Part shown: positions 8,906 through 27,710 of the stretch, one piece after another
Layout: every line of letters begins with the position of its first letter
Numbering within the stretch: the stretch's first letter is position 1
Source of the DNA: Halobacteriovoraceae bacterium
GTDB lineage: Bacteria > Bdellovibrionota > Bacteriovoracia > Bacteriovoracales > Bacteriovoracaceae
Assembly: GCA_002718735.1 (NCBI GenBank)
Contig: PBFR01000031.1
Location: 1-28,840, forward strand
DNA: 28,840 nt
Direction of reading: 5' to 3'
Notes under the pieces: model-generated
Seen by the model: the letters and a program-made list of their open reading frames with translations, nothing else
Database searches by the model: none
What the model was told of the DNA's origin: nothing
Translations under genes and position numbers: made by a program

Positions 8906-11254
8906 TTAACTGCCGCAACTAATACATTCATCCTTGTTTTCCAAGGAACAAATCATTTGTTCGGTCATCTCTTCTTTAGTTACCTGGTTTGAGTTTTCAC
9001 GGATTGTAAATTTGATCGCATCAGCGGCTGCTTTTGTCCTCAGGTAATACATTCCAGTTTTAAGACCTAATTTCCAAGCGTAGAAATGCATGGAGTTAAG
9101 TTTTCCCATATTAACGTCGGTCATGTGAATATTAAGAGACTGGGACTGGTCGACAAATGCTCCCCTGTCAGCTGCCATTTCAATAATGGATTTTTGCTTA
9201 ATCTCCCATGCTGTCTTATAGAGCTCTTTAATGTCCGATGGAATCTTGTCAATGTTCTGAATTGAACCGTTATGTTGGATAATTTGATCCTTCATCGTCT
9301 CATTCCACAAATCAAGTTTAATAAGGTCTTTAACTAGGAATTTATTTACAACTGTGAATTCACCAGAAAGAGTTCTTCTTGTATAGATATTGGAAGTAAA
9401 TGGCTCAATACATTCATTATTTCCTAAAATCTGTGAAGTTGAGGCAGTTGGCATTGGTGCCACTAAAAGAGAGTTTCTTACACCATCTTTTAAAATCTTG
9501 TTTCTAAGACCTTCCCAGTCCCATCGCTCACCAGGCTTTACGCCCCACATGTCAAACTGGAACTCACCCTTTGAGATTGGGGAGCCTTCATAACTTTCAT
9601 ACGCACCGTCTTTCACAGCAACTTCGTGGGAAGCAGTCAAAGCCGCAAAGTAGATTGTTTCAAAGATATCTCTATTAAGTCTTCTTGCCTGATCGGAATC
9701 AAAAGGAATTTTAAGCTTGGCAAAAGTGTCTGCCAATCCCTGAACACCGATCCCGATAGGCCTATTCTTTAGATTAGAGAATCTGGCCTCTGGAACTGGA
9801 TAGTAATTTAAATCAATAATCTTATTCAGGTTCTTTGTGATTGTTTTGGTAATCTCATATAACTTATCAAAGTCATAACCTTCTCCAGTAACAAACTTGC
9901 CAAGAGAGATAGAGGCCAGGTTACATACTGCGATTTCATTCTCATCAGTGTATTGAATGATTTCAGTACATAGGTTACTAGATTTAATAGTACCCAGGTT
10001 CTTCTGATTTGACTTTGCATTTGCTGCGTCTTTATAAAGCATAAACGGAGAGCCTGTTTCCACTTGCGACTCAAGAATTGAGAACCATAGTTTTCTGGCA
10101 CTTACCTTCTGCTTTGCTCTGCCTTCACTCTCGTACTTGGTGTAAAGATCTCTAAATTCTTGTCCATGGCACTCATGAAGATTTGGTGCTTCATGAGGAC
10201 AGAAAAGCGACCACTCTGCATCTTGCTCTACCCTTTCCATAAAAAGATCATTAACCCAAAGTGCGTATAATAGATCTCTCGCCCTAAGCTCTTCTTTCCC
10301 ATGGTTTTTCTTCAACTCAAGAAAGTCAAAAATATCGGCATGCCAAGGCTCAAGGTAAATAGCAAAGGCACCTTTTCTCTTTCCACCACCCTGATCAACA
10401 TATCTTGCAGTGTCGTTAAACACTCTGAGCATAGGAACGATACCATTTGACTCGCCATTGGTTCCTTTAATAAAGGTCCCCTTGGAACGAATATTGTGAG
10501 CACTCAGCCCAATCCCACCTGCCGACTGACTGATAAGGGCACATTGTTTAAGAGTGTCATAAATACCTTCAATAGAATCGTTTTTCATCGTTAAAAGAAA
10601 ACACGAAGACATTTGTGGCTTTAGAGTTCCTGCGTTAAAAAGTGTTGGCGAAGCGTGGGTAAACCACTTTTGGCTCATTAAATGATAAGTTTCGATTGCG
10701 GCATCAATATCATCTTCGTGAATGCCAAGTGAAACTCTCATAAGCATATGCTGAGGTCTCTCAACAATCTTTCCGTTTACCTTTAATAGATATGATCGCT
10801 CTAAAGTTTTAAAACCAAAGTAGTCATACTCAAAATCTCTTGAATATGCGATCTCAGTTTCTATTCTATCTTTATGGTTCTGAGCATTTTCAAAAAGTTT
10901 ATCGGATATCAGGGCCGTCTGCTCCCCTGTTTTTGGATCTACATGATTGTATAGAAGCCCCATAGTTTCCAAAAAGGAGTCTTTAGTGTTTCTGTGCAGA
11001 TTACTCATTGAGATTCTTGCTGCCAACTTAGAGTAATCTGGGTGAATAGAAGTCATATAAGCAGCAACTTCTGCTGAGAGATTATCTAACTCAACAGTTG
11101 AAATTCCGTCAAAAATACCTTGAATGGTTCTTTTAGAAACCTCAACTGCATCTACATGGGCAATGTTAAGTCCATAGGTCAGCTTTTGGATACGGTGAGT
11201 AATCTTATCAAACTGAACGCTTTCTTTTTTACCTGATCTTGTCGTTACAAACAT
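8906..11254 (-). CDS. nrdA: ribonucleoside-diphosphate reductase, class Ia large subunit
   Basis: A 782-residue protein that reduces NDPs to dNDPs together with NrdB. Residues 1-90 are the ATP-cone allosteric domain, beginning [11 protein letters not shown]. The ten-stranded barrel carries the redox pair C218 (SSCFLL) and C444 (VCNLAS), the thiyl-radical C429 with N427 and E431 (NLCTE), and PMPTAS. The C-terminus has the shuttle Cys pair in [14 protein letters not shown]. These Cys positions coincide with the numbering I recall for human RRM1 (218, 429, 444), and long stretches read nearly like the animal protein, so it belongs to the eukaryote-like NrdA group. The start ATG at 11254 follows a GAGG, 15 bases after the nrdB stop. 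Confidence 0.97.
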
Positions 11255-11269: not shown

Positions 11270-12244
11270 TTAGAAGTCAAAGTTAGTGTCAAATTCAAAA
11301 CTGTTATCTTGCAAAGAACTCATAACGCCAGCTTTTTGATATTCACTCACGCGTTTTTCAAAAAAGTTCGTCTTTCCCTGAAGTGAAATAAGTTCCATCC
11401 AATCAAAAGGATTGGTGGCGTTGTAGTGGGCATCATAACCAAGTTCTAGCAACAGTCGATCCGCTACAAACTCAATGTATTGACACATCAAGTCCGCATT
11501 TATCCCGATTAAGGATACTGGGAGCGCCTCGGATATGAATTTCTGCTCCAACGCCACCGCCTCAGTGATAAGTTCGTAAACTTTCTCTTTTGCTGGTTTA
11601 TTTTGAATATACTTATAAAGTATACATGCGAAGTCTGTATGTAGACCTTCATCACGACTAATCAGTTCATTTGAGAAAGTAAGCCCTGGCATTAGACCAC
11701 GTTTTTTAAGCCAAAAAATTGAGCAGAAACTTCCGGAGAAGAAGATTCCCTCTACAGCTGCGAAGGCCAGTAGTCTTAAAGCAAAGTCATCACCACTTTC
11801 AATCCACTTTAATGCCCAGTCCGCTTTTTCAGCGATACATGGAACATTATCAATGGCCTTAAAAAGATAGTCTTTCTCTTTTTTATCTTGAATATAGGTG
11901 TCAATTAAAAGGCCATATGTCTCAGCATGAATATTTTCCATCGCGATTTGAAAACCGTAGAACGATCTTGCTTCTGGAATTTGGAGGTCATTGTAAAACC
12001 TAAGAGCAAGGTTTTCGTTTACAATGCCATCACTCGCACTAAAGAAAGCTAGTACATGTTTAATGAAGTGTTTTTCATCTTCATTTAATTTTTTCCAATC
12101 TTCTAAATCTTGGTATAAATCGATTTCCTCAGCAGTCCAAAAGGACGCCATGGATTTTTTGTACATTTCCCAAATGTCGTCGTACTTAATAGGCAATAAA
12201 ACAAAACGGTCGTTGGACTCCTCCAACAAAGGCTCTTTCTTCAT
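11270..12244 (-). CDS. nrdB: ribonucleoside-diphosphate reductase, class Ia small subunit
   Basis: A 324-residue diiron/tyrosyl-radical subunit. Iron ligands are in register with the family: D72 (SDG), E103 and H106 (ENIH), E165 (VEG), E199 and H202 (DEGLH), with radical Y110 four residues after H106. The C-terminal tail ends FEFDTNFDF, like the NrdA-binding tail of eukaryotic R2. The frame stays open back to 12418, but the ATG at 12244 is chosen because AGGAG lies seven bases upstream and because family homology begins there ([17 protein letters not shown]). The upstream open frame is leader carrying the riboswitch. It is the first gene of the nrdB-nrdA operon. Confidence 0.97.
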
Positions 12245-12263
12245 GAAACTCTCCTCTCTCATG

Positions 12264-12277
12264 GTGTGTGTGTGTGT
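12264..12277. repeat. (GT)7 dinucleotide repeat in the nrdB leader
   Basis: Seven perfect GT units (CA on the mRNA strand), about 20 bases upstream of the nrdB start and just before its ribosome binding site. Confidence 0.9.
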
Positions 12278-12335
12278 ATGATTACGGGGTTTTCTAAAAT
12301 GTATGGAACTTTCTAATTTTTGTTGCTGAACATAA

Positions 12336-12438
12336 AAGTCACTCTCCTCGGTGTTTGTGATGACTTCGTAATCAGGATCTGACTTTACAGTTGCGGGACA
12401 GTGCTGGAATCTCACCAAGCTTCACTAACTACGAACAC
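12336..12438 (-). promoter_or_regulatory. cobalamin (adenosylcobalamin) riboswitch upstream of nrdBA
   Basis: On the minus strand the conserved B12-riboswitch core is present: GGTGAGATTCC (12416-12406), CCCGCAACTGTAA (12397-12385) and AGTCAGATCCTG (12384-12373). The stem around the first element is restored by compensating bases: AGT/ACT next to GC(U)UGG/CCAGC replaces the usual GGG/CCC. An outer 5-bp stem GTGTT/AACAC (12438-12434 with 12355-12351) could be P1. A downstream hairpin AAGTCA/TGACTT (12366-12361 with 12341-12336) has a loop containing GAGGAG and could be the regulatory P13-like element. The family switches expression off when AdoCbl is bound. Compared with typical members, the segment between CUGUAA and AGUCAG is absent. 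Confidence 0.87.
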
Positions 12439-12440
12439 TT

Positions 12441-12470
12441 TGTATAAGCTTTATATAATAAATCTGATAA
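12441..12470 (-). promoter_or_regulatory. possible nrdBA promoter
   Basis: TTATCA (12470-12465) and TATACA (12446-12441) are spaced 18 bases apart and would start transcription just before the riboswitch P1. Several other AT-rich -10-like boxes (for example TATTAT at 12460-12455) are nearby, so the exact hexamers are uncertain. Confidence 0.4.
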
Positions 12471-12538
12471 TTCAATGAAAATGTTTGTAAAAGCCCTGAC
12501 TAGGCGCTTCTATGCGAATTATGATATAAACAAAAGTT

Positions 12539-13126
12539 ATGAATATTAAATACTTACAGGCAATTGTTTTTGATCTTGACGGAACCTTGGTGGACTCAAG
12601 ACTAGACTTTGATAAAATGCGAAGAGATCTCGGCTTTCCACCCGGTGTACCAATACTTGAACACCTTTCACTTCAAGAAGATGAAAATTATATAAAAAAG
12701 TGCAATCAAATCATTTGTGAGCATGAAGAAAATGGAGTTCAGGTCGCAACCTTAATGCCTGGAGTTCACAAACTTCTTGAGATAATTAAAATAAAGGGCC
12801 TTAAGACAGGAATTCTCACAAGAAACAATTCCAATGTCACAAGACTGACTCTTGAAAAATTTAAATTGAAATTTGATGTTGTTTACTCTCGTGAGGATTG
12901 CCGACCAAAACCCCATCCAGAAGGACTTTTAAGAATGGCCAAAAACTGGGAAGTAAAACCAGAGAATATGCTTTATATAGGTGACTTTCTCTTTGATCTT
13001 GAAACAGCAAAAAACGCAAAGGCAAAGTCATGCTTATACCTCAATTCAAAGAATCATGAATTAAAATCACAAGCTGATTACGTTTTAGAGTCCTATGATA
13101 TCTTAATCAAAAGCCTCTCCTTATAA
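12539..13126 (+). CDS. HAD-superfamily phosphatase (phosphoglycolate phosphatase-like)
   Basis: A 195-residue cytosolic enzyme of HAD subfamily IA. Motif I is FDLDGTLVDS with nucleophile D12 and acid/base D14. Motif II Thr is T94 in GILTRNN, motif III Lys is K124 in CRPKPHP, and motif IV is GDFLFDLETA (D149, D153). The small helical cap lies between motifs I and II. Such enzymes hydrolyse small phosphate esters; the substrate is not predictable. No good ribosome binding site precedes the ATG. It is divergent from nrdB and overlaps the convergent glutamate dehydrogenase gene by 20 bases at the 3' end. Confidence 0.88.
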   Translation: MNIKYLQAIVFDLDGTLVDSRLDFDKMRRDLGFPPGVPILEHLSLQEDENYIKKCNQIICEHEENGVQVATLMPGVHKLLEIIKIKGLKTGILTRNNSNVTRLTLEKFKLKFDVVYSREDCRPKPHPEGLLRMAKNWEVKPENMLYIGDFLFDLETAKNAKAKSCLYLNSKNHELKSQADYVLESYDILIKSLSL

Positions 13127-17348: not shown

Positions 17349-18827
17349 CTAAGCCGCTATTCTTGACGATTTGAAATAGTCTTCAGCATACTTTGTATCC
17401 ACTCCCATAATATGAGTAAATAACCAGTTTTTAAGAAAGCTTGCAAACCTTGCGCGATCTAGATTGCCTCGATCCAAATCAACACCAAACCTTCCCACGG
17501 CCTCAAGTAAGTTTTCGTGTACTTTTTTATGGGAACTAAAACTGCTGTAGTTAAAGCTTTGCATGAAGCTTTCCTCATGTTGGAAGTGGTTTACGGTCAC
17601 ATTTTTAAGCTTCTCAAAAGAGTTCTTCATTTTACTTTGATCGTTGAGGTTCATTGACCTGATGAGGTCATTAATGCAATCTAGGATATCGATATGCTCT
17701 TTATCGATATGGTCAATGTTGACGGCATATTTCTGGTCCCATGGGATTTCTTCAATTTGAAATTGTCGAGTTATTCCAGTAACAGTTTGGATACCATCAA
17801 CAGACTTATCAAGATTCCCTAACTCTTTTTTAAGTTCTGATGCAAGTTTGGCCGTTTGACTTACAACGAGTGTGTTTCTTTGGACACCCTCACCTGCATT
17901 TGAGGTTGCCTCAGCAATTTCTTCCATAGACCTAACTTGTTCAGAAAAGGCCACAGAAACCTCTTGTATTTCTTTTTCAATGTTTGATGTTTCATTCGTA
18001 ACAGCAAGAAAGCTCTCTTTAAATCGATTTAAGGACTGCTCTGTTTGGGAAACTTGCTTCTCTAAGCTCCCCTCTAACGACAGTGCGCCCTCCTCCATTT
18101 CTTTAATGAGGTTAGAAACACTTTCTTTTGTGGTTTCTAGAGTTGACTGTATAGAAGTTGCACTCTTTCCACTCAAGTCGGCCAAGTTCCCAATTTCTTC
18201 AGCCACAACAGCAAACCCTCTTCCATGCTCCCCAGCTCTTGCAGCTTCAACGGATGCATTGAAAGAAAGAAGTTTAGTTTGAAAAACAATATCGTTAATA
18301 ACTCCAGTGCTTTCAACAACTTTTTCAAATTGTGCCCCAAGTGAAAGTAATTGCTCTTTGTTTTGGTTTAAGGTGTTTACGACTTTTTTATTATTGGAAA
18401 AGCCATCCTTTAGGGAGCTTTCCAATTCCTTAACCAAGGATGAACTTTGCTCAATACTTTTATTAATAGACGAAACTATATCTTTTATTGAATTAAAGCT
18501 TTCATGATTTTGCTGACTCAACGTTTTCACCTCATGGCAGGAGGCACCAGTTTGAGTCATGGCACTTGCTTGAGCGGAGCTAGATTCGTCCAGTTGCACA
18601 CATGAACTATTAATTTGCTCAACAGTTCCTTCCAAGTGATCTTTTATCTTAGAAATATCACCATGTAACTCAAGCAATAGCTTTCTCTGACTAATGCTCT
18701 TTCGGGCCAACAAAACTAATGAGATTAGCGAGAGGCCAATCCCCCCTCTTAAGTCGATAAAGGATGCTGTAATAGGAAGTGCCACCAGGAGCATAGGCCA
18801 CACATTTTCTTTCGAAATTATTCTCAT
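17349..18827 (-). CDS. methyl-accepting chemotaxis protein with C-terminal bacteriohemerythrin
   Basis: A 492-residue chemoreceptor. Two short hydrophobic segments at residues 10-41 anchor it with almost no periplasmic loop, so there is no external ligand domain. Residues 60-355 are the coiled-coil signalling domain, with hairpin tip [30 protein letters not shown] (about 182-211). Residues 360-486 are a complete hemerythrin domain: H378, H414, E418, H433, H437, H472 and D477 fit the seven ligands of a non-heme diiron site. Such fusions (DcrH-like) sense O2 or redox state and signal to CheA. AAAGGTGGT six bases before the ATG supports the start. Single gene, divergent from the DUF4430-like gene. 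Confidence 0.95.
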
Positions 18828-26453: not shown

Positions 26454-27710
26454 ATGAATGCCACATTAAAAGTAGTCTTAAGTTCATTACTATTAGTACT
26501 ATTCATTCAAAGTTCTTATGCAAATACCAACCACAAGTGCCACCTACTTCTTGATGCAGGAAGTAGTGGCACAAGGTTATATGCATTCAAGAAAAAGGGT
26601 GATTCATTTAAGCAATTATATAAAGATACAATAAATATTGGGGTATCTTGGAGTCTAGAGCAAAAATTGTGTTCACATAAAATTTGCACTCAAAAAGATA
26701 TTGAAAAGACTGTTTATACTTTAATAAATAGCTATCTATCAAAAGATAATGAATGCAAAGAAGGTATAGAAACAATAAATTTACTAGCAACTGCCGGCAT
26801 GAGGTTAGCGGAACAAAAACACGGTAGGGCCAGGGTTAAAAACCTTTATGCCCACTTAGAAAGAATTATTTTGAAAGCGCTGAAGACCTTCCATATACCC
26901 ATAGATAAAAATAAAGTGTCGGCCAGAACCATAACAGGCGCAGAAGAAGGAATTTACACCTGGTTGGCCGTCAACATACTAAAAGAGAACCACACAAACA
27001 CGGAGGGCATAATCGAAATGGGTGGAGCTTCAATGCAAATAGCTTATGCCTGTGAAAACGATCTCAACTGTAATGATAACTCTTTCAAAGTTAAATTCAG
27101 AAATTCCATAGTAAACCTTTTTAGTCATTCATGGCTTGGACTCGGTAGAAATGAAGCATACCGAATTTACAATTTAGAAAAAAGTAGGAGCTGCACCCAA
27201 TCAGATTCAAATAATTTTATATTAGAAAGGTGCATGTCGGATATATCAAAAATTTTCACCCAATACGAAAACAAAATTTACCTTAAAGATCATCTAAACT
27301 ATAAAGCAGCAACATCAGTGAAACAAGGTACAAAAATTCAGGTCAATATTCCTGCAGACAAAAGATTTCATGCCACTGGTGGTTTTGTATATGCTGAATT
27401 TGATTCTCTTCTTAGAAATGCACATGAAATCTGCAACATCAGCAAAACTGACTTAATTGAGAATAGAACACAATATCAAAGCATTGAAAAAACCCCTGAA
27501 GAATTAATTGAATCCGAATGCTTTGCAAATCTATATTACCAAGCTCTTATAGATTCTATCCCAAACTTAAATATAACCAGCAACTTAAAGAAAATGAAGG
27601 AAATCAACATCGATTGGATCTATGGAGCAATTAACTGCATAGAAACAAATTGCCTTGAATTTTATGAGCCTAACTGCAAATGGAATAAAAACTGGAACTG
27701 CATTCAGTAA
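26454..27710 (+). CDS. secreted GDA1/CD39-family apyrase (NTPDase)
   Basis: A 418-residue protein with a signal peptide (residues 1-24). The apyrase conserved regions are in order: ACR1 DAGSSGTR (34-41), ACR2 ATAGMR (112-117), ACR3 GAEEGIYTW with catalytic Glu 165 (162-170), ACR4 EMGGASMQI (188-196, for the usual DLGGASTQ) and ACR5 ATGGF (307-311). Family members remove terminal phosphates from NTPs and NDPs using divalent metal. They are mostly eukaryotic; Legionella carries a known secreted one. About 17 Cys point to a disulfide-rich extracellular protein. No strong Shine-Dalgarno is present, so coupling to the hydrolase gene is likely. Confidence 0.9.
   Translation: MNATLKVVLSSLLLVLFIQSSYANTNHKCHLLLDAGSSGTRLYAFKKKGDSFKQLYKDTINIGVSWSLEQKLCSHKICTQKDIEKTVYTLINSYLSKDNECKEGIETINLLATAGMRLAEQKHGRARVKNLYAHLERIILKALKTFHIPIDKNKVSARTITGAEEGIYTWLAVNILKENHTNTEGIIEMGGASMQIAYACENDLNCNDNSFKVKFRNSIVNLFSHSWLGLGRNEAYRIYNLEKSRSCTQSDSNNFILERCMSDISKIFTQYENKIYLKDHLNYKAATSVKQGTKIQVNIPADKRFHATGGFVYAEFDSLLRNAHEICNISKTDLIENRTQYQSIEKTPEELIESECFANLYYQALIDSIPNLNITSNLKKMKEINIDWIYGAINCIETNCLEFYEPNCKWNKNWNCIQ

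Follow-up and report, generated by a model that had tools for sequence, protein, structure and literature searches.

Our results suggest that a cobalamin riboswitch ahead of a class Ia ribonucleotide reductase operon acts on a very short upstream open reading frame (uORF) that lies between the switch and the first reductase gene, nrdB. The reading we favor, which we hold to be somewhat more likely than not, is that the AdoCbl switch gates the uORF, that translation of the uORF leads to expression of nrdBA, and that the class II enzyme NrdJ takes over when B12 is plentiful. To judge from the layout of the leader, the switch would control ribosome binding at the uORF and not at nrdB. This wiring would be unlike simple repression, since it is the uORF's ribosome-binding site that the switch covers.

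The window, by which we mean the whole stretch of 28,840 nucleotides that was analyzed (contig PBFR01000031.1, Halobacteriovoraceae bacterium), contains the following features.

12331..12451 (-), AdoCbl (cobalamin) riboswitch, short form, from cmscan with RF01482; the model's 16-position insert is empty
12394..12398 (-), L5 of the kissing loop, UCCCG, from the sequence and from L5-L13 co-variation in the order
12340..12353 (-), P13-L13 hairpin CAC-[CGAGGAGA]-GUG, from the sequence; its loop holds the kissing partner CGAGGA and the Shine-Dalgarno AGGAG (12344-12348)
12313..12333 (-), uORF MFSNKN-stop, ATG 10 nt after the L13 Shine-Dalgarno
12245..12312 (-), spacer of 68 nt from the uORF stop to the nrdB start, with a CA repeat at about 12263-12280
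12242..12263 (-), predicted 7-bp hairpin CAUGAGA-[GAGGAGAG]-UUUCAUG, with the nrdB Shine-Dalgarno (12251-12255) in the loop and the start codon in the stem
11270..12244 (-), nrdB, class Ia ribonucleotide reductase beta subunit, ATG at 12244; PF00268, E 3.7e-117
8906..11254 (-), nrdA, class Ia ribonucleotide reductase alpha subunit; PF02867, PF00317 and PF03477; TIGR02506 at 734 bits (cut-off 341)

The riboswitch and the genes behind it

A cmscan of positions 11900-12800 under an E-value threshold matched RF01482 (AdoCbl) at 12331-12451 on the minus strand, with 42.2 bits, an E-value of 3.2e-6 and model positions 1-149 covered. At the Rfam gathering threshold cmscan returned zero matches in the window; the gathering score of RF01482 is 50, which the element does not reach. 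Because of this score we name it an AdoCbl-type riboswitch on other features. The whole aptamer model is covered, the conserved core segments are present, and the core is also kept in nine relatives. The L5-L13 kissing loop is present as well, made up of UCCCG and CGAGGA. In the alignment to RF01482 there are two non-standard pairs in the long closing helix and three in the terminal hairpin; the CAC/GUG stem with its eight-base loop is our reading by eye. On its sequence the element is an AdoCbl-type riboswitch, and we infer that it binds this ligand.

A preliminary description of this DNA had placed a B12 riboswitch in the nrdB-nrdA leader and proposed a covariance-model scan. RF01482 bears the placement out, under the E-value threshold and not the gathering threshold, and the same element stands before nrdB in relatives. 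The motifs quoted then (GGTGAGATTCC, CCCGCAACTGTAA and AGTCAG) all lie on the minus strand where they had been positioned. The span given, 12336-12438, was in the right place but slightly too short at both ends.

The genes have the marks of a class Ia enzyme in their sequences: NrdA carries the ATP cone and the barrel, NrdB the di-iron ligands and the radical tyrosine. NrdB residues D72, E103, H106, Y110, E165, E199 and H202, which we take to correspond to D84, E115, H118, Y122, E204, E238 and H241 of E. coli R2, do not vary among the 26 sequences that we aligned, that of the window included. To this extent the enzyme is the canonical diiron/tyrosyl-radical reductase with all ligands that had been described. 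Another ATG in the nrdB frame, at 12262, comes after the CA repeat and has no Shine-Dalgarno. Relatives of NrdB also turn up in phage records (655 records, best identity 70%).

Two other genes of the window deserve mention. In the protein encoded at 17349-18827 a hemerythrin domain comes after a chemotaxis signaling domain; it might be a receptor for oxygen or redox state. At 26454-27710 lies a protein of the GDA1/CD39 nucleoside phosphatase family, better known from eukaryotes, which adjoins an alpha/beta hydrolase.

Conservation across the order

We compared the window with the order to which genome G001 belongs, a group of predatory-type bacteria represented by 129 genomes, 93 of them with NrdB. 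An RF01482 match lies directly 5' of nrdB in G001, G037, G038, G039, G040, G085, G126, G127 and G128. The closest NrdB relatives in the order, G126 (97%) and G127 (95%), are both among them. We searched the DNA upstream of nrdB for the core motif, allowing up to two substitutions. The core was found in 9 of the 60 relatives whose upstream DNA was examined, about 150-200 nt from the gene, and in 0 of the 51 others; these 60 are drawn from the 93 NrdB genomes, and for loci L176 and L172 the upstream DNA amounts to 284 and 428 bases only. In the remaining 33 NrdB genomes no RF01482 match lies beside nrdB, as judged by comparing coordinates by eye in an order-wide scan whose filters lose weak matches.

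The alignment of the ten nrdB leaders, the window's included, retains GGT...TCC, CTGTCCCGCAAC and CGAGGA. The switch-bearing relatives, at about 77-97% NrdB identity, have kept L5, L13 and the conserved parts of the core whole. This conservation of the core before nrdB argues against a chance match. Among the best 80 NrdB loci a similar cobalamin core was found within 500 nt in two: L001 of G001 (Halobacteriovoraceae bacterium), which is one of the nine above and whose NrdB, at 83%, is the closest from a named organism in this set, and L077, whose core-like motif lies 478 nt away with one mismatch. In the same check L009 had less than 300 nt of upstream DNA.

A low score is usual for these switches. 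RF01482 matches at E<=0.001 in 82 of the 129 genomes and exceeds the gathering cut-off in 11; counted as hits, 13 of 106 are over it. Hence, Rfam annotation at the gathering threshold would miss most cobalamin switches here.

Genes behind the switch elsewhere in the order

To the 106 RF01482 hits of the order we added the window, giving a set of 107 switches. The L13 loop is of the expected type in 92 of the 107, with at least three flanking pairs in 75. Loop L5 changes together with L13: UCCCG goes with CGNGGA in 79 switches, UCGCG with CGCGU in 6, UCCGG with CUNGGA in 3 and UGCCG with CGAGCA in 3. Mixed combinations number 0 among the 91 of 107 that can be classified (16 fall outside the table, and the loop patterns were chosen post hoc). 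The consensus UCCCG and the kissing loop itself are already known (PMC10653944, as excerpted).

The position of the downstream gene was classified by script where the L13 pattern could be parsed, and the 76 switches classed in this way as direct have a start codon 1-8 nt after L13. The pattern failed in 13 of the 107, of which by eye 12 run directly into the gene and one (L264, in the TonB cluster) is unclear. Thus, of the 97 switches that do not precede nrdB, 89 are direct (76 by script, 12 by eye, and L260, whose downstream frame has 79 aa), 7 are not direct and 1 is unclear. A single protein cluster makes up 69 of the switch-led downstream genes, and the TonB plug domain was found in all four members scanned. 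In this cluster the gene starts straight behind the switch in 68 of 69 cases (60 by script and 8 by eye, with L264 unclear). Because these genes start there, we conclude that L13 serves as the Shine-Dalgarno before TonB receptors.

Other genes are also led by such a switch. A 4HBT-type thioesterase follows it at 10 loci, which form one cluster (e.g., L088, L202, L198 and L082, of which L202 was scanned), and by eye at four more, L206, L232, L238 and L239. Such a thioesterase could possibly release CoA while an AdoCbl-dependent mutase stands still. At L081, L112, L113, L116 and L118 the switch precedes a small 4Fe-4S protein resembling the activase of class III reductases; the scan of L116 gave PF13353 only, and three of the five are not started directly after L13.

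An upstream open reading frame in all ten riboswitch-led nrdB leaders

In the nrdB leaders the arrangement is different. The loop is CGAGGA in 10 of 10. P13 stays paired although its stem varies among UCC/GGA, UUC/GAA, CCA/UGG and ACC/GGU, with at least three flanking pairs in seven of the ten; the window, L136 and L137 (the window group) have only one pair next to the six-base loop. A start codon, of whichever kind, follows L13 by 2-12 nt in all ten leaders and opens a frame of 5-34 codons that does not continue into nrdB. Starts that are not direct thus occur in 10 of 10 nrdB switches versus 7 of 96 others (Fisher 6e-10, from 7 vs 89 and with kinship ignored).

Restricted to ATG at 2-11 nt after L13, a range fixed after the leaders had been inspected, the count is 8 of 10 leaders against a mean of 1.5 in dinucleotide shuffles, none of 5000 of which reached 8. 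With the three closest leaders collapsed to one, ATG is found in 6 of 8, where 1.1 are expected, a value reached by 1 of 5000 shuffles. Five of the uORF ATGs fall inside the 1-8 nt range of directly started genes. The spacing in the window group is 10-11 nt, and two TTG starts lie at 9 and 12 nt. The window offers an alternative start, the in-frame GTG at 12342, 1 nt after the L13 Shine-Dalgarno. Read in this way, the start region under control of the riboswitch would belong to the uORF in 10 of 10 nrdB leaders, with wide spacing in the window group.

The encoded peptides include MFSNKN in the window and MFQRKN, MPLKN, MREIS, MNTHN, MVGNTLN and MLVEFE, besides longer frames of 28 codons in L133 and, started by TTG, of 19 codons in L268 and 34 codons in L084. 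Their conservation is limited to an initial M/L-R-E in 4 of 10. The uORF stops 29-98 nt upstream of nrdB in eight leaders and overlaps the nrdB start in two, L133 and L084. An in-frame fusion of nrdB to the start near L13 is ruled out, as each frame stops before nrdB or differs from it in frame. Away from nrdB, the uORF of L222 (before metE) reads MNIFVTS and that of L198 (before a thioesterase) MNFIITS, in different genomes, and the likeness of these seven-residue peptides hints at selection on the peptide.

The start region of nrdB

In all ten leaders nrdB starts 72-120 nt after L13, behind a Shine-Dalgarno-like stretch of its own. The mean unpaired probability of this Shine-Dalgarno ranges from 0.18 to 0.84 in folds predicted without ligand, and a consistent anti-Shine-Dalgarno was not found in the ten leaders, folded without ligand or pseudoknot. 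Simple re-initiation is therefore not obvious, given that nrdB has a good Shine-Dalgarno of its own, with no consistent counterpart to mask it, and that the uORF stop is distant. The CAUGAGA/UUUCAUG hairpin is predicted only in the window group, where its sequence is identical and so provides no co-variation. By eye, a hairpin AAAUCC ... GGAUUU or similar, with a CA-rich loop, is possible just before the nrdB Shine-Dalgarno in L084, L268, L133, L175 and the switch-less L140; CA-rich runs are found there also without a riboswitch.

We found no intrinsic terminator between the switch and nrdB in the window, where a single terminator-like site lies inside nrdB. The spacer of the window has 20 C against 10 G. 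C exceeds G in only 6 of 10 leaders, and such an excess is common without a switch too (38 of 51 switch-less nrdB leaders); for these reasons a Rho site as a special feature of the leader is unsupported.

NrdJ and the supply of B12

It had been predicted that the genome carries an nrdJ-type reductase and B12 uptake elsewhere, and we examined both in relatives. TIGR02504 (NrdJ) exceeds its cut-off in 61 of 129 genomes and in 7 of the 9 switch-bearing ones. Because G085 has the gene in two frames, we count 8 of 9; in G037 nrdJ was not found, and the prediction holds for the other eight. Including fragments, nrdJ is found in 8 of 9 switch genomes and in 29 of the 84 NrdB genomes that lack the switch (Fisher p 0.002, kinship ignored), and without broken genes in 7 of 9 and 27 of 84 (Fisher p 0.011, kinship likewise ignored). 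G126 and G127 encode a vitamin B12-dependent ribonucleotide reductase of 1168 aa (NF005736, over cut-off). L138 and L143, from genomes with nrdJ and no nrdB switch (G031 and G032), contain stretches such as ACACAATATATAG, which look like NrdR boxes.

A PduO-type cob(I)alamin adenosyltransferase is present in 8 of the 9 switch-bearing genomes, G126 and G127 among them (7 over cut-off, and a fragment in G038). CobS was found in 0 of 9, which hints at an external source of B12. The uptake prediction stands in part: a riboswitch-led gene of the TonB-receptor cluster occurs in 5 of 9 (G038, G039, G126, G127 and G128) and is absent from the RF01482 hits of the other four, G001, G037, G040 and G085. 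G127 additionally has a riboswitch-led periplasmic binding protein. These receptors and the binding protein would carry B12. From their gene content, several switch-bearing bacteria look like B12 importers able to run NrdJ.

How the leader might work

Translational cobalamin switches use the kissing loop to control access to the ribosome-binding site (excerpts of PMC10653944), and by analogy AdoCbl should shut the uORF. Binding of AdoCbl would favor pairing of L5 (UCCCG) with L13 (CGAGGA) and so hide the Shine-Dalgarno in L13, which in the nrdBA leader would serve the uORF. When B12 is scarce, the uORF would be translated and nrdBA expressed; when it is plentiful, the uORF would fall silent, nrdBA expression would go down and the AdoCbl-dependent NrdJ would take over. 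The step from the uORF to nrdB might be Rho termination after ribosome cover is lost, which we favor, or alternatively re-initiation. Ribosomes might open the predicted 7-bp hairpin whose loop holds the nrdB Shine-Dalgarno in the window group. What can be read from DNA is the switch with its kissing loop, the Shine-Dalgarno in L13, the start of the uORF and the separate one of nrdB, and, in relatives, nrdJ and adenosyltransferase; to these we add by inference ligand binding, the sign of control, uORF translation and its passing on to nrdB.

One could also argue that the switch represses nrdBA without any help from the uORF. L13 and the kissing loop would then alter how the leader as a whole folds, or favor termination of transcription, with the uORF as the leftover start codon of a riboswitch module that once stood before another gene. 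The kissing loop constrains the L13 sequence regardless of any uORF, the peptides are mostly unconserved, nrdB possesses its own Shine-Dalgarno, and the ATG in the window group is spaced wider than direct starts. Against it, between switch and nrdB in the window we find no intrinsic terminator, and in the ligand-free predicted folds of the ten leaders the nrdB Shine-Dalgarno is not consistently sequestered. Nor does the kissing loop explain why a start codon is kept beyond chance in diverged leaders. We regard this alternative as unlikely, although it is the one to be taken most seriously.

It is much less probable that translation of the uORF lowers nrdB, so that B12 would raise nrdBA. The uORF of metE in M. 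tuberculosis provides a precedent for this in a cobalamin switch (PMC11260477, as excerpted), but that uORF lies inside the aptamer and the nrdB uORF behind L13. The sign would also contradict the isozyme logic of a B12-free enzyme beside nrdJ and an adenosyltransferase. We give hardly any credence to a decayed or chance match that has lost riboswitch function. The score below the gathering cut-off and the non-standard pairs would fit such an element; against it stand full-length coverage of the model and the preservation of L5, L13 and the core segments, which are undamaged and recur in relatives whose NrdB identity is about 77-97%. A score below the cut-off is likewise seen in 64 of the 69 TonB-cluster switches.

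Gating of the uORF thus remains our preferred reading, and it can be extended, more tentatively, to the order as a whole. It may be, though we would not quite bet on it, that the switches of B12-independent genes (nrdBA, one metE and some others) act on an interposed mini-ORF, and that the act of translating, not the peptide, licenses the operon. An essential enzyme would in this way keep a basal supply while the same type of aptamer shuts TonB receptors directly.

Comparison with known systems

A class Ia reductase under B12 control is already known; the new element is the uORF in the expression platform. Among the matches listed, judged by titles and the starts of abstracts, we found no open-licence description of a uORF relay on ribonucleotide reductase or, for Bdellovibrio-like bacteria, of nrdBA under a cobalamin switch. 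If our reading is true, the uORF relay known from mycobacteria extends to another phylum and to an essential enzyme. The order would offer a natural comparison, with 68 TonB-receptor riboswitches without a uORF and 10 nrdB riboswitches with one. The findings also suggest that external corrinoids influence how the switch-bearing bacteria, in which CobS is absent, make DNA precursors.

The parallel to Streptomyces that had been drawn is in print: a cobalamin riboswitch precedes the class Ia operon nrdABS in a genome with AdoCbl-dependent NrdJ (Borovok 2006, via excerpts of PMC4991794). Both systems combine an AdoCbl riboswitch with a class Ia operon, and co-occurrence with NrdJ is here seen in relatives. 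In Streptomyces, a different phylum, control is described as transcriptional, whereas here the platform looks translational (L13 as Shine-Dalgarno); the leader here also has a uORF. B12-elements have also been proposed on the class III genes nrdDG of the delta-proteobacteria Desulfovibrio vulgaris and Desulfuromonas, together with a rule for B12-independent isozymes (PMC545781). There, too, B12 is thus proposed to repress a B12-independent reductase in the presence of NrdJ, but the enzyme is of class III and not Ia, and the excerpted text does not mention a uORF.

For the uORF itself, the closest precedent is M. tuberculosis ppe2, where a cobalamin riboswitch is combined with uPPE2 (PMC11260477) in what PMC12713380 calls a "uORF-dependent translational relay". 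As far as the excerpts of PMC11260477 go, the platform masks the start region of the uORF and not that of the main gene, as we propose for nrdB. Gene and phylum differ, and ppe2 has no Shine-Dalgarno and a four-base overlap with its uORF, whereas a separate Shine-Dalgarno precedes nrdB, and in eight of ten leaders the uORF ends 29-98 nt short of the gene. In the pe20 Mbox of M. tuberculosis a translational riboswitch likewise targets a short ORF and affects the downstream operon through Rho-dependent termination; unlike the nrdB switch, it has Mg2+ as its ligand, another aptamer and a highly conserved uORF (PMC12810186, as excerpted).
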